A DNA stretch of 38,669 bases from Granulosicoccus sp. (GTDB taxonomy: Bacteria > Pseudomonadota > Gammaproteobacteria > Granulosicoccales > Granulosicoccaceae), in assembly GCA_020627685.1 (NCBI GenBank), contig JAHDGK010000045.1, forward strand, positions 1 through 38,669, read 5' to 3'. The notes under the pieces were generated by a model, which worked only from the letters and a program-made list of their open reading frames with translations, was not told the origin of the DNA and ran no database searches. Both the position numbers and the translations under genes were made by a program. How positions within the stretch are numbered: position 1 is the stretch's first letter; every line of letters begins with the position of its first letter. This document shows, piece after piece, positions 19,917 to 25,956 of this stretch.

Positions 19917-21443
19917 TTACATACCGGACATGTCGGTGTGGCAGCTAGGTGAACGAGGGCAGGCGCCACTTCTCGGGCAAATCAAACGCGCTTCTTTTTC
20001 AATTCCGCGGCCTAGCCAGGCAATATTTAATAGCTTGGCTATTTGACGCAATTCGTTTTTGATGTCCTCAGGGATAGCCACTGATCCGCCACCGGCTATA
20101 CACGCATCTTTCAAAGATTGCGCTACCTGTGAAGCATCGACACCTTGAGCTGTGAGTGCGGGATTGACATCGATGCCTGCGCATAATACATGTCCGGCCC
20201 CTGACATGTCGCTGACTTTAACTGATTCGCAGCAATAGATGCGTGGTTCTGTTCCAACATCCAATACCGAAATTTGAGCAGAGCTTGCGTTTGAATCGGT
20301 ATTGATCATTCTGAATACCGCCCAGTGTTGACAAGGGTCTTGAACTAGACGCATGTTTCCCCAGGGTAAAGGGATGCCATTGCCTCTATATACAGCGTGT
20401 AAGCGACCCGGCGGGTATGCATCAAAGTAATGCCAGTGAGGGTATGACGATACTACGGTCATACGTCTCATCACTGTAGAGGTTGTAACACCAACCATCT
20501 CGGCCACGCTGATGTCATGCGCTTTTTGTTCTAACAGCCTGCGAAAAGGCACCTTAGGGCAGAGCAGAGCACCTGCGAAAAAACTGCATTCGAAATCGCG
20601 CCAGGCATGAACGATATCCTGCGCATTCAATGCACTACTGGCATCCAAACCCAACGAAAAATCACTAACAGTTTCTTCAGCCTTAGGGCCTGTTGTCATT
20701 AAGCTTTTTACACCGTCACCTTCGTGCAACACCTTATGACCTATGTATAAAGCTAAGTCATACTTTAAGCGTTCGGGTTGTTGCTGCATGACTTTGTTCA
20801 CGTAAATAGTTGCAGGTGCATCGAAGTAAGAACGCACGATGCCTGAATCTCTTACGGTCATTTTTGACTGTGCCGCTTTTGGCAATCGGGTAAACCATTT
20901 AATTTTTAAACCCATGTTTGCGCAAATATCCATTAAGGCTTCAACGCTTAATGGCATCTGTTTTTTACCGACGTTTTCTGCAGCGCGTTCGAGTTCAGGA
21001 AAATGGTTTTGATTGTTTTCCTGATGAGCACGAATTAACAGGTGGGCAAACTGACGTCCGGAAACACCGGTTTGCGAAAGCATTTCCGGGATGGCGTTTT
21101 GTAAAATTTCTTTGGAAAATAAGAAGCCCGGCTCCAACGTCATACCGGTTACACCGCCCTTATTACCTTTAACCGGGGCAATTGCTGATTCTTCAGGCAC
21201 GTTATCTAAGAACCAGCCCACATCTTTCTGAAAAACCTCCGCAATAACCCGGAGCATATGTTCGCTCGGGTGCCTTTTACCCCGTTCAATCATTGATAAA
21301 TAGGACACAGAAGGCGCAGATTCCGCGTCCAATTTTACACAACGCGATGAGAGGTCATCCATCGTCAGATTGTTGCGCTTTCGTAAGTTCCTGATTTTAG
21401 TACCTAAAAAATGGGCATTACGTATGGATGAGGCTTTTGACAT
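19917..21443 (-). CDS. RamB/ScfR-like XRE regulator of acyl/glyoxylate metabolism
   Basis: 508 residues. N-terminal XRE helix-turn-helix (about 14-75: LGTKIRNLRKRNNLTMDDLS, then SYLSMIERGKRHPSEHMLRV). A middle domain of the IrrE/ImmA-like type (DUF955 region) contains YDLALYIGHKVLHEG; the usual HExxH zinc motif is not intact, reading GHKVLH. The C-terminal DUF2083-type domain ends in a Cys cluster (CPRSGACPRSPSCHTD). This architecture is shared by RamB, which controls isocitrate lyase in actinobacteria, and by short-chain fatty acyl-responsive regulators. Here the gene is divergent from aceA, which fits the same job: sensing acetate or acyl-CoA status and controlling the shunt. Specific effector and sign of control are unknown. 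Confidence 0.85.
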   Translation of the reverse strand: MSKASSIRNAHFLGTKIRNLRKRNNLTMDDLSSRCVKLDAESAPSVSYLSMIERGKRHPSEHMLRVIAEVFQKDVGWFLDNVPEESAIAPVKGNKGGVTGMTLEPGFLFSKEILQNAIPEMLSQTGVSGRQFAHLLIRAHQENNQNHFPELERAAENVGKKQMPLSVEALMDICANMGLKIKWFTRLPKAAQSKMTVRDSGIVRSYFDAPATIYVNKVMQQQPERLKYDLALYIGHKVLHEGDGVKSLMTTGPKAEETVSDFSLGLDASSALNAQDIVHAWRDFECSFFAGALLCPKVPFRRLLEQKAHDISVAEMVGVTTSTVMRRMTVVSSYPHWHYFDAYPPGRLHAVYRGNGIPLPWGNMRLVQDPCQHWAVFRMINTDSNASSAQISVLDVGTEPRIYCCESVKVSDMSGAGHVLCAGIDVNPALTAQGVDASQVAQSLKDACIAGGGSVAIPEDIKNELRQIAKLLNIAWLGRGIEKEARLICPRSGACPRSPSCHTDMSGM

Positions 21444-21459: not shown

Positions 21460-21498
21460 TTGTAAAATTCACAGTGTGTAATTTCTATTGTCAAATTC
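21460..21498. promoter_or_regulatory. Direct repeat, candidate operator of the aceA locus
   Basis: TTGTAAAATTC (21460-21470) and TTGTCAAATTC (21488-21498) are 11-mers differing at one base with starts 28 bp apart. A related TGTGTAATTT lies between them (21475-21484). They occupy the 151-bp gap between the RamB-like gene and the divergent operon. The TTGYAAA-like core recalls the TTTGCAAA core of known RamB sites. Assignment is inference. Confidence 0.4.
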
Positions 21499-21594
21499 TA
21501 GTTCATTTTTAATTAGACTGCCGTTAAGCCTTAGGACAGGCGAGTTTCCACAGCGAGTGGAGTCATTTCGTCAGTTTAACGTTGGAGCAAGAAC

Positions 21595-21927
21595 ATGGGC
21601 ATGAATCAACACTTCAGAACATCAGCAAATTGGGACCAGGCAATTAATTTCCTGGACCAGAGTTTCCCCTTGGCAGAAGGCTCGCATGCCGCAGCAACTG
21701 CTTACTTGGTGTACTTCGATCACTTGTTGGTTATCCGTGCCGACGGATCAACAACTGGATTATCCAGTCCTTCACAGTTTGTTGAAGCTGGTGGTAACGA
21801 GGAGTCTCCTCAGTCCATCTTGCTGGAGAACAACGGCCTACAGGTTGAAATAGAACCTGATCAAGCAGGCGCAAAGCGTTCAGGTGTCATGCCGAACCAT
21901 CGCATGCAATTACTCACTCAAATTTAA
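21595..21927 (+). CDS. Stand-alone malate synthase G insertion-domain-like protein
   Basis: 110 residues, with GGAG seven bases before the ATG and a clean TAA. From residues 14 to about 92 it reads like the alpha/beta insertion domain of malate synthase G: AINFLDQSFPLAEGSHAAAT corresponds to the family's FLD-x-x-x-PLA-x-GS block, ADGSTTGLSSPSQFVEAGG to DGSTTGL-x-x-x-x-QF, and SPQSILLENNGLQVEIEPD to the SP-x-x-x-LL-x-x-x-GLHIEI strand pair. The TIM barrel that carries catalysis is absent, so it cannot be an active malate synthase. The comparison is from memory of the family. The gene lies 55 bp before aceA on the same strand; a small hairpin AGGCC-CGAC-GGCCT (21929-21942) lies between. Possible roles include metabolite or partner binding near the isocitrate node; none is shown. 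Confidence 0.7.
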   Translation: MGMNQHFRTSANWDQAINFLDQSFPLAEGSHAAATAYLVYFDHLLVIRADGSTTGLSSPSQFVEAGGNEESPQSILLENNGLQVEIEPDQAGAKRSGVMPNHRMQLLTQI

Positions 21928-21982: not shown

Positions 21983-23581
21983 ATGAACCAGTACCGCACT
22001 TTAGTCTCTGAAGCCGCTGACAAAATCGCGTCAAACGGTAGTAGCTGGGATGCTATCAATGCAGAGAATGTTGCACGGATGCAGCTTCAAAATCGTTTCC
22101 GTACAGGTCTTGATATCGCCCGTTACACCGCAGGCATCATGCGTGAAGACATGGCAGCTTACGATAAAGATCCTGCTCAATACACTCAATCTTTAGGTTG
22201 CTGGCACGGGTTTATCGGACAACAGAAACTGATTTCTATCAAGAAGCACTTTGGTTCCACAAAGGGGCGCTACTTGTATTTATCCGGTTGGATGATTGCA
22301 GCGCTTCGTTCGGAGTTTGGTCCGCTACCTGATCAATCTATCCATGAAAAAACATCAGTGCCAGAGCTTATTGCAGAGCTTTATACCTTCCTAAAGCAAG
22401 CTGACGCTCGTGAATTACGTCATTTGTTCACTGAGCTTGATCAAGCTCGAGCAGATAATAACCAGATCGCAGAAAAAGCTGCGATGGACAAAATTGATAA
22501 TTTCCAAACACACGTTGTGCCCATCATTGCAGACATAGACGCAGGTTTCGGGAACGAAGAGGCCACGTATCTGCTGGCTAAAAAGATGATCGAAGCCGGA
22601 GCGTGTGCTTTGCAAATCGAAAATCAAGTCTCTGATGTTAAGCAATGTGGTCATCAAGACGGAAAAGTCACTGTGCCGCACGAAGATTTCGTCGCAAAAA
22701 TTAATGCGCTGCGTTATGCCTTCCTAGAGATGGGCGTGGAAGACGGAATTATTGTGGCTCGTACCGATTCTCTGGGTGCAGGCCTTACACAGAAAATTCC
22801 AGTGTCTCGTACACCGGGTGATTTGGGCGATCAGTACAATGCCTTCCTCGAAGGTGAAGAAGTGTCTTCGCTTTCCGATATCAACCCGGGCGATGTCGTT
22901 ATTCAGCAAGGTGGCAAGACCATCAAAACGTCACGACTACCCAATGGCCTCATGCAGTTTCGTAAAGGCACCGGCGAAGATCGTTGCGTATTAGATTGCA
23001 TTACCTCGCTAAGAAATGGTGCTGATCTACTGTGGATTGAAACTGAAAAGCCGCACGTAGGCCAAATTGCTGGCATGGTGAATCGAATTCGCGAAGTCAT
23101 TCCGAATGCAAAATTGGTTTACAACAACAGCCCTTCATTTAACTGGACGCTTAACTTTCGTCAGCAGGTTTTCGATGCCTGGCAGGAAGAAGGCAAGTCA
23201 ACCGATGATTACAACCGTGATGATCTGATGAATGAGAAGTACGATTCATCAGAGTTGGCTGCAGAGGCTGACGTTCGTATTCAGGCCTTCCAGTCTGATG
23301 CATCCGCCAATGCAGGCATATTCCATCACCTGATTACACTGCCGACTTATCACACGGCGGCTCAGTCGACTGATGCCTTGGCCAAAAATTACTTTGGTGA
23401 AGAAGGCATGCTGGCCTATGTTCGAGATGTTCAACGCCGCGAGATCCGTGACGGATTGGCCTGCGTCAAGCACCAGGACATGTCCGGTTCCAATATCGGT
23501 GATGACCATAAAGAGTACTTCTCAGGTGCTCAGGCTCTGAAGGCTTCGGGAAAAGACAACACGATGAACCAATTTGGTTAA
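21983..23581 (+). CDS. aceA: Isocitrate lyase
   Basis: 532 residues from the ATG at 21983, with AGGA upstream. The frame stays open 33 codons further 5', into the previous gene's end, without homology. The length and the active-site sequence SDVKQCGHQDGKVTVPHEDF (Cys222; KQCGH rather than the KKCGH of E. coli) mark the subfamily found in Pseudomonas and Acinetobacter. Other landmarks are PIIADIDAGFGNEEATYLLA (metal-binding Asp), IIVARTDSLGA, LVYNNSPSFNW and the late FHHLITLPTYHTAA. It splits isocitrate into glyoxylate and succinate, the first step of the glyoxylate shunt, for growth on acetate or fatty acids. A strong terminator follows (23594-23631), separating it from the isocitrate dehydrogenase gene. 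Confidence 0.97.
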   Translation: MNQYRTLVSEAADKIASNGSSWDAINAENVARMQLQNRFRTGLDIARYTAGIMREDMAAYDKDPAQYTQSLGCWHGFIGQQKLISIKKHFGSTKGRYLYLSGWMIAALRSEFGPLPDQSIHEKTSVPELIAELYTFLKQADARELRHLFTELDQARADNNQIAEKAAMDKIDNFQTHVVPIIADIDAGFGNEEATYLLAKKMIEAGACALQIENQVSDVKQCGHQDGKVTVPHEDFVAKINALRYAFLEMGVEDGIIVARTDSLGAGLTQKIPVSRTPGDLGDQYNAFLEGEEVSSLSDINPGDVVIQQGGKTIKTSRLPNGLMQFRKGTGEDRCVLDCITSLRNGADLLWIETEKPHVGQIAGMVNRIREVIPNAKLVYNNSPSFNWTLNFRQQVFDAWQEEGKSTDDYNRDDLMNEKYDSSELAAEADVRIQAFQSDASANAGIFHHLITLPTYHTAAQSTDALAKNYFGEEGMLAYVRDVQRREIRDGLACVKHQDMSGSNIGDDHKEYFSGAQALKASGKDNTMNQFG

Positions 23582-23727: not shown

Positions 23728-25956
23728 ATGACCGATCGTACCCCGACAGTTATCTATACGTTGACCGACGAAGCCCCCGCGCTGGCCACATACTCCCTGT
23801 TGCCCATCGTCCAAACGTTCACTCGTGCTGCGGGAATTGCTGTAGAAACACGAGATATTTCTCTGTCAGCGCGTATCCTCTCGCAATTTAACGATCAGTT
23901 AAGTAGCGACCAACAAACCCACGATGCATTGGCCGAGCTCGGTACGCTTGCGGTAAAACCTGAGGCTAATATCGTTAAGCTGCCAAATATCAGCGCCTCG
24001 ATTCCGCAGCTAAAGGCCACTATTGCAGAGCTTCAGGCCCAGGGTTTTGGCATTCCCGACTACCCGGACGAGCCAAGCAGTGATGCTGAAACCGAAGCAA
24101 AGGCCCGATACGATCGAGTCAAAGGCAGTGCGGTAAATCCCGTATTAAGAGAAGGAAACTCGGACCGACGAGCCCCGGCCGCTGTAAAAAGCTATGCGCG
24201 GGCTAATCCACATGCAATGGGCGCCTGGACGGCAGATTCTAAATCCCATGTTGCCAGCATGGATGCGGGTGATTTTTTCTCCAATGAACAGTCAGTGACA
24301 ATGGCCACCGATACCACGGTTCGTATTGAGCACGTGGCTGAAGACGGTGCCGTTACCGTGATGAAGCCCGATTTTGGTGTTCTGGCTGGTGAGATCGTCG
24401 ATTCCACGTTCATGAGTAAAAATGCGCTGACCCAATTCTTAGCCGAGCAAATCACCGACGCAAAAGCTCAAGGCGTACTCTTCTCTGTACATTTAAAAGC
24501 CACCATGATGAAGGTCTCAGACCCGATCTTGTTCGGCCATGTTGTGAAAGCCTATTTTGCAGATCTCTTTGCCGAGCACGGAGACGCACTGGAATCTGCG
24601 GGTGGAAATCCAAACAACGGTGTCGGCAGTTTGCTTAACGCCATCGAGGGTATGCCTGCAGATCAGCGTGCACAGGTGGAAAAAGCGATGGAAGACGCGT
24701 ATGCCAACGGTCCTGGCATTGCGATGGTCAATTCCGACAAAGGTATTACCAACTTGCATGTGCCAAGCGATGTCATCGTTGATGCGTCTATGCCAGCCAT
24801 GATCAGAACATCGGGCAAAATGTGGAACGCTGCGGGCCAACTTCAGGATACCAAGGCCGTTATCCCGGATAGTTGCTATGCAGCTGTCTATCAGGAAACA
24901 ATCTCTTTTTGCCAGGAACATGGAGCGTTTGATCCGACAACTATGGGAACCGTACCTAATGTGGGTCTTATGGCGCAAAAGGCTGAAGAGTACGGATCAC
25001 ACGATAAAACCTTTGAAGTACCTGCAAACGGCACTATGCGGGTTATCGATGGTTCCGGTAATGAGCTCATGAGTCATAGCGTTGAAGCGGGTGATATCTG
25101 GCGCATGTGCAACGTTAAAGATGCACCAGTCAGAGATTGGGTCCGTCTTGCAGTATCCCGGGCGAAAGCGACCGGTAGCCCGGCTGTTTTCTGGCTGAAT
25201 GCGGCAAGAGCTCATGACGCGCAGCTCATTACTAAAGTGAATGAGTACCTCGCAGACCATGATACGAGTGGTCTGGATATCAGCATCATGACCCCGGCTG
25301 AAGCGACGCGCTTCTCCATGCTTCGCTTAAAAGATGGCAAGGACACGATATCAGTAACGGGTAATGTTCTTAGAGATTACCTCACAGACCTGTTTCCTAT
25401 TCTGGAATTAGGCACTAGCGCCAAGATGCTCTCCATCGTTCCGCTGATGAACGGAGGTGGTTTGTTCGAAACCGGTGCCGGTGGCTCAGCGCCTAAGCAC
25501 GTAGAACAGCTTGTAGAAGAAAACCATTTACGTTGGGATTCCTTAGGGGAATTCCTAGCGATAGCGGTCTCGCTGGAACACTTTGCCGAAACGGAAAACA
25601 TTGCACGCGCTCAGGTGCTGGCAACCACACTCGATTTGGCGACCAGTAAGCTCTTACTGGAAGGTAAATCGCCCTCCAGGCGTGTCAAGGAGCTGGACAA
25701 CCGCGGTAGTCATTTCTACCTGGCTATGTATTGGGCAGAAGCATTGAGCCAACAGGACGACGATGCTGAATTGAAAGCGCAGTTTGCAGGTCTGGCTGAT
25801 GCCTTGATGCAAAACGAAGCCACTATCGTTGCTGAGTTGAACGAAGTGCAGGGCAAGCCTGTTGATATCGGCGGATATTATCGCCCTAACATCGAAAAAT
25901 GTGAGCAGATCATGCGACCAAGCTCCACGTTTAACGCGCTCTTAGCAGCTGTCTGA
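23728..25956 (+). CDS. icd: Monomeric NADP-dependent isocitrate dehydrogenase
   Basis: 742 residues, the size of the monomeric IDH of Azotobacter and Vibrio and unrelated in sequence to the E. coli dimer enzyme. The start [19 protein letters not shown] and [19 protein letters not shown] are nearly invariant in the family. The substrate loop [14 protein letters not shown] (about 133-146), followed by HPHAMGAW-type residues ([17 protein letters not shown]), binds isocitrate. Later blocks include [55 protein letters not shown] and [15 protein letters not shown]. It converts isocitrate to 2-oxoglutarate and makes NADPH. It competes with the aceA product for the same substrate. It has its own leader after the aceA terminator. 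Confidence 0.97.

Follow-up and report, generated by a model that had tools for sequence, protein, structure and literature searches.

The window analysed here, a 38,669-nucleotide stretch of a Granulosicoccus genome, carries a very small gene between a divergently transcribed regulator, here called REG, and the isocitrate lyase gene aceA. The features of this locus are as follows.

19917-21443, reverse strand: REG, the divergent regulator, 508 aa, with HTH_3 (residues 17-78), an IrrE-like Peptidase_M78 (204-328) and DUF3612 (329-503), as assigned by Pfam
21461-21497, forward strand: operator-like element of three TGTnnAATT repeats at a 14-bp period, common to REG and the slot promoter
21513-21530, forward strand: conserved promoter-like block, TTAGACT then CCGTTAAGCC, recognized by eye in the upstream stretches, its promoter role being presumed
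21584-21587, forward strand: GGAG, likely ribosome binding site, 7 bases 5' of the ATG, read from the sequence
21595-21927, forward strand: stand-alone malate synthase G insertion-domain gene, 110 aa, ATG start and TAA stop
21983-23581, forward strand: aceA, isocitrate lyase of the PRK06498 type, 532 aa (NF005074, 1012.9 bits against a cut-off of 446)
23728-25956, forward strand: monomeric NADP isocitrate dehydrogenase, 742 aa, the gene after aceA (PF03971, 1286 bits)

A first-pass annotation of this DNA had described the small gene as a complete frame of 110 residues with its own ribosome site and stop, 55 bp upstream of aceA, and had recognized in it the small alpha/beta insertion domain of malate synthase G (MSG) with the catalytic barrel missing and no remnant of it nearby. 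These readings hold. As only 55 bp separate the stop codon from the aceA start at 21983, no room is left for a barrel, and in the whole genome a single malate synthase TIM barrel was found, in a full MSG on another contig. The profile search that had been proposed as a check finds PF20658 (MSG_insertion) at residues 15-79, with 70.3 bits against a cut-off of 24.8 (E 1.6e-19); a sequence search of the PDB returns 11 distinct MSG sequences at E 3.7e-6 or better. PF20658 is the sole Pfam domain of the protein: the TIM barrel (PF01274) and the C-terminal domain (PF20659) are absent, and the catalytic and metal-site motifs were not found in it. The only other match to the protein in its genome lies within a full 761-aa frame on contig C97.

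Structure prediction of the protein alone, likewise proposed at first pass, agrees with the profile. Modelled on 73 related sequences, an alignment that included MSG segments, the protein reaches a mean pLDDT of 74.2 and a pTM of 0.64, with residues 1-10 and 91-99 under pLDDT 50 (an earlier model, from 18 rows, had a mean of 68.5). The predicted fold aligns over 105 residues with residues 132-266 of MSG 6asu (Z 14.4, rmsd 2.6), and in the model it is that of the MSG alpha/beta insertion domain. Judged by its sequence, the window gene encodes the MSG insertion domain whole and detached, and it has conserved relatives.

Nor does the gene owe its presence to chance, since 18 stand-alone genes of about 110 aa occur in 14 of the 57 genomes searched, its own among them, and all are in the window's genus. 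Thirteen of the 18 adjoin REG divergently. In four genomes (G012, G018, G023 and G024) the gene is doubled, with one copy preceding aceA and the other set between REG and the isocitrate dehydrogenase gene; the large-genome Granulosicoccus species have a split locus (L047, L048, L049 and L051 against L050, L055, L056 and L052). The same slot is filled differently in the sister genera g4 and g5, where, in ten genomes, a protein of 362-474 aa is encoded between REG and aceA (in G030 aceA is off the contig, and the aceA side of the slot was not seen there). They are truncated malate synthases that retain the N-terminal part and the insertion domain along with some, or little, of the barrel. Slot genes are 334-474 aa long in some lineages and about 110 aa in Granulosicoccus. 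In five genomes outside the family (L148-L152) a full-length MSG of 724-760 aa sits between REG and aceA, and this order, REG // full glcB - aceA, is the ancestral one.

Farther afield the short form was sought with the NCBIfam model NF006511. In a sample of 398 genomes of the phylum, 149 match it, 12 of them over the cut-off, and weaker short forms may be missing from this count; among the matches listed, stand-alone genes of 150-209 aa occur in four further gammaproteobacterial families, one of which includes relatives of Vibrio sp. THAF191d. Wide occurrence of the short form in the Gammaproteobacteria was considered and rejected: the model matches in 75 of 369 genomes of the class, with short frames only in the Granulosicoccus rows G000 and G017. 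DUF3612 was found in 21 of the 398 genomes, and the divergent neighbour is MSG-derived in 21 of 21: five full, one truncated and 15 short. Outside the window's family the first stand-alone copy lies divergent beside REG in 15 of 15 cases, with no aceA after it in those examined. Six second copies sit away from REG, and at the four such loci tested no constant neighbour was found, the genes alongside coding for TRAP and BCCT transporters, ProV, a GGDEF protein, PDH E1 alpha and an ISL3 transposase; the last, an ISL3-family gene at L139 8041-9234, adjoins the second stand-alone copy of G637. Seven genomes (G496, G745, G725, G604, G723, G683 and G755) have REG and the stand-alone domain; in none of the seven was an isocitrate lyase of the PRK06498 type found, and each has a single NF006511 match, so that no full-length MSG match is left to any of them.

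A tree of the domain was built from 101 columns with 39 stand-alone, 11 truncated and six full REG-linked sequences and 18 unlinked MSG, the clade groups being set in the script before the tree was viewed; the alignment is short and its branches are long, and the topology is to be read with caution. The 56 REG-linked domains form one clade against the 18 unlinked MSG (support 99/91). One of the six linked full enzymes, that of G290, is on a contig that begins 84 bp upstream of the gene, with REG and operator beyond view; it is counted as linked because it has the order glcB-aceA and falls inside the linked clade. Within the clade, the stand-alone sequences of Granulosicoccus join the truncated ones from the same family (support 96/65), and stand-alone sequences from other families fall beside linked full enzymes (90/76). 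A tree that brings all stand-alone forms together is rejected (AU p 0.0286). A single origin of the stand-alone state was tried as a candidate and set aside on that value, obtained from 101 columns with long branches; an earlier tree of 51 rows, with no members from outside the family, had one stand-alone clade (93/76). Because the stand-alone forms are not one clade, MSG appears to have been reduced to its insertion domain at least twice.

The course of the reduction can be followed in the proteins themselves. GFLDRTGDE-, MEDRATLR- and GIMDEERR-like motifs, chosen from MSG alignments as its catalytic and metal-site motifs, are present in six of six linked full MSG and in none of the 50 shortened proteins. 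In the alignment, a hairpin with the signature YxVY[YF]xHL is present in four linked full enzymes (G741, G538, G553 and G622), less clear in two (G733 and G290) and absent from the 18 unlinked MSG; the truncated forms of g4 and g5 have N (or D) at its H position. In nine truncated proteins of g4, mean pairwise identity is 63.2% in the insertion domain, 28.0% before it and 23.4% after it, and the domain is the most conserved part in 36 of 36 pairs. In the 18 unlinked full MSG identity averages 49.1% in the domain and 66.5% in the part that follows, with the domain the lower of the two in 153 of 153 pairs; in the six linked full MSG the figures are 58.0% and 68.1%. By comparison with full MSG, then, constraint in the truncated forms has shifted onto the insertion domain.

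Selection on the stand-alone gene points the same way. In Granulosicoccus, of 19 pairs compared, seven with dS under 1.5 have a whole-gene dN/dS of 0.097-0.264; four further pairs have saturated dS, and eight are saturated without a value; dN/dS is below 1 in all 11 computable pairs. Outside the family it is 0.013-0.028 for the domain in the four computable of six pairs. The values for aceA (0.029-0.052 in four pairs) place the Granulosicoccus stand-alone copies as the faster evolving. On these ratios the stand-alone domain is under purifying selection. It had been allowed at first pass that the gene might prove to be a frameshifted remnant of a full glcB in close relatives. Full and truncated forms of glcB do occupy the slot in relatives, but the shortened forms are conserved, so the slot gene is not a frameshifted, decaying leftover; for the window gene itself this account is rejected because all 18 copies conserve the reading frame and each of the 11 computable pairs has a dN/dS below 1. 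Sequence, phylogeny and gene order together show that the slot gene descends from a REG-linked MSG, of which the barrel and the C-terminal part were lost and one domain was kept, under purifying selection, in at least two lineages.

The tie between regulator and domain is not a fixed one. In a sample of the taxonomic order to which the window belongs, REG is present in 37 of 48 genomes, and 24 of the 37 have a slot gene. In eight of them (G015, G020, G059, G028, G035, G027, G010 and G022) REG lies directly beside aceA with no slot gene; in G026, G008 and G019 REG and aceA are apart and a slot gene was not found; G014 has a decayed slot-gene remnant and a REG fragment only (this tally leaves out G032). 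As REG genomes with no slot gene exist in the sample, REG does not require the domain. Four close relatives with aceA and a full MSG have either no stand-alone gene or a decayed remnant. The remnant in G014 (L104) lies upstream of aceA: 39 residues match at 54% identity, and an early stop follows. The operator-like site there is intact despite the decay of the stand-alone gene.

That element is the second thread that ties the locus together. In the window it matches the three-repeat pattern with 0 mismatches and is the only site in the genome at up to 3 mismatches. At the same threshold all 34 genomes with REG (in G014, a REG fragment) have it and none of the five without REG does; a reversed pattern, as control, found 0 sites across the 39 genomes. 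When the stretch searched runs from 400 bp before the called start to 250 bp beyond it, the element precedes all 39 stand-alone genes, all 11 truncated genes and five of six linked full genes (for the sixth, the contig ends 84 bp away), and none of the 18 unlinked glcB genes. Second stand-alone copies carry their own element. The element also precedes aceA where there is no slot gene (L104-L107, L111, L112, L120, L121 and L217-L220), and none was found before aceA in L122, from a genome without REG. Clusters of aceA or glcB not linked to REG (L158-L162 and L128) yielded no two-repeat site before either of these genes; in L128 the only two-repeat sites sit before the stand-alone gene. In the seven genomes named above, the sole element found lies between REG and the domain. 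REG presumably binds the three-repeat element. Extra elements in G029, G065 and G015 precede a gene for 353-371 aa (L214 3563-4678, L215 3819-4880 and L216 4202-5287), whose product looks, by eye, like an NAD(P)-binding protein of the Rossmann type; for the one from L214, NCBIfam gives no match at E<=1e-3. This gene is possibly a further REG target in this family.

What might the domain do? Several bacterial groups kept it beside one regulator, and it therefore probably does something useful alone. The likeliest way to understand its persistence, to which we give a probability of about 0.43, is that the MSG-derived domain is a non-catalytic partner of REG, giving feedback on expression of the glyoxylate shunt. 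That is, REG, an IrrE-like and ScfR-like protein, would bind the three-repeat element and control the domain together with aceA; it would read the acyl-CoA state, controlling itself, the domain and, where present, aceA; the insertion domain may already have been a regulatory part of the REG-linked full MSG, since the altered hairpin is present in linked full enzymes; and the domain would now act alone, binding REG or the effector of REG and so feeding back on it. In outline, this would be a trigger enzyme stripped to its regulatory part. The wider proposition, that the domain serves DUF3612 regulators as a dedicated co-regulator or effector, in a role predating the loss of catalysis, with MSG reduced at least twice, we place slightly short of even. 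Against the feedback reading stand the relatives that have REG without the domain, the faster evolution of the Granulosicoccus copies than of aceA, and the six copies off REG. Moreover, where the element lies only between REG and the domain, a domain that modulates REG would give a loop without visible output.

This last point leads to the main rival, in which the domain is the output of REG, and acts on isocitrate lyase, isocitrate dehydrogenase or another malate synthase, or binds a metabolite; we regard this as possible, at lower odds than feedback. The sole element in the seven genomes favours it somewhat, as do the clusters away from REG that have no site before aceA or glcB while in L128 the stand-alone gene has them, and the Granulosicoccus copies precede aceA or isocitrate dehydrogenase, two enzymes of the isocitrate branch point. 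But outside the window's family the domain has no constant enzyme neighbour, the operator pattern may miss REG targets (the three extra sites in G029, G065 and G015 bear on this), and the altered hairpin arose in a REG-linked full enzyme, which favours a tie to REG. The first-pass annotation had offered isocitrate lyase or the cell's full malate synthase as partners for a detached and repurposed domain; detachment, conservation under purifying selection and the place upstream of aceA are borne out, but the partnership is unsupported as stated, and the recurrent partner is the divergent REG. A docking subunit of either enzyme, for substrate channelling or allostery, accordingly looks improbable to us: the gene does lie directly upstream of aceA in the window and in most Granulosicoccaceae, and the window's genome does have a full MSG, but the 15 first copies beside REG outside the family speak against isocitrate lyase, the seven genomes that have the domain with neither the PRK06498-type lyase nor a full-length MSG match weaken the idea for both enzymes, and the four close relatives keep aceA and a full MSG with the gene absent or decayed. 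Least probable is a relic kept by chance, or kept since its 5' part overlaps regulatory DNA or couples translation to aceA. Loss or decay in some relatives, as in the G014 remnant, is what a relic would lead one to expect; dN/dS well below 1 largely refutes it, and the same domain was retained in separate reductions, conservation in the truncated forms is concentrated on it, and it is conserved even where no aceA comes after.

An alpha/beta insertion sets MSG apart from the shorter isoforms, and to our knowledge the function of this insertion has not been established. Here it occurs as a separate gene under selection, linked to a single regulator and a single operator-like site; the question of its function therefore becomes directly testable. 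The analysis also links an uncharacterised DUF3612 regulator to a likely target and corrects an annotation: the proteins that PRK08951 names 'malate synthase' have no catalytic parts and do not belong among the glyoxylate-shunt enzymes. In the open-licence PMC literature the name DUF3612 was not found, nor any publication on a stand-alone MSG insertion-domain family. Already known is the existence of the stand-alone form, as an unstudied name in NCBIfam; new are where it came from, the finding that reduction was repeated, its association with DUF3612 and the operator-like element common to REG and the slot gene.

Among known systems the nearest in concept are the trigger enzymes, metabolic enzymes with a second role in controlling a regulator. 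Like them, REG-linked MSG is an enzyme gene tied to its own regulator; unlike them, the stand-alone domain has lost its catalytic part, and its regulatory act is suggested by genomic association. The nearest in descent is MSG itself (GlcB; TIGR01345, PRK02999), which the window protein resembles in sequence and predicted fold over residues of about 131-266. It differs in having no N-terminal clasp, TIM barrel, C-terminal part or catalytic motifs, and in carrying the REG-linked hairpin. NF006511/PRK08951 'malate synthase' (190 positions) likewise comprises stand-alone MSG insertion-domain proteins, and is named for an enzyme activity of which, by the MSG mechanism, these proteins are incapable. 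A protein of Vibrio sp. THAF191d (L147), divergent beside REG, scores 287.2 bits to this model against a cut-off of 173; the window protein reaches 88 bits, which is below that value, and differs from the members in its 110-aa length, its aceA operon and its apparently separate reduction. In a prophage-gene mutant of Vibrio parahaemolyticus, a gene labelled simply 'malate synthase' is reported to be up 25.6-fold and, separately, malate synthase A 5.6-fold (PMC8783578). The former may be the stand-alone protein, called by its NCBIfam name.

REG invites comparison with the ScfR regulators. At first pass the small gene was said to face a RamB-like regulator; a divergent regulator does lie at 19917-21443 on the reverse strand, but 'RamB-like' was loose, as the RamB model NF038139 gives 18.4 bits against a cut-off of 700. 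HTH_3 and Peptidase_M78 are above the Pfam cut-off in REG; the window REG has no ScfR match in Pfam at E<=1, the C-terminal domain included, and in a PDB search it returned HTH matches only, with no PrpR chain. The likeness is one of architecture: RamB and PrpR, like REG, join an HTH and an IrrE-like part to a C-terminal domain of unknown function, which is DUF3612 in REG where ScfR has DUF2083. The element differs too, with three boxes at 14 bp against the two boxes and 18-bp spacer of ScfR. Nine cysteines of REG do not vary among the 26 homologues compared, and three of the nine (489, 495 and 501) lie in a C-x5-C-x5-C tail, which suggests a metal or iron-sulfur site. MtPrpR uses acyl-CoA and an iron-sulfur cluster, whose cysteines are comparable to the three C-terminal ones of REG, with a different spacing (PMC6765138). 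Finally, the order REG // glcB - aceA has a parallel in Paracoccus, where the RamB gene immediately precedes those for malate synthase and icl and is read in the opposite direction (PMC10370305).
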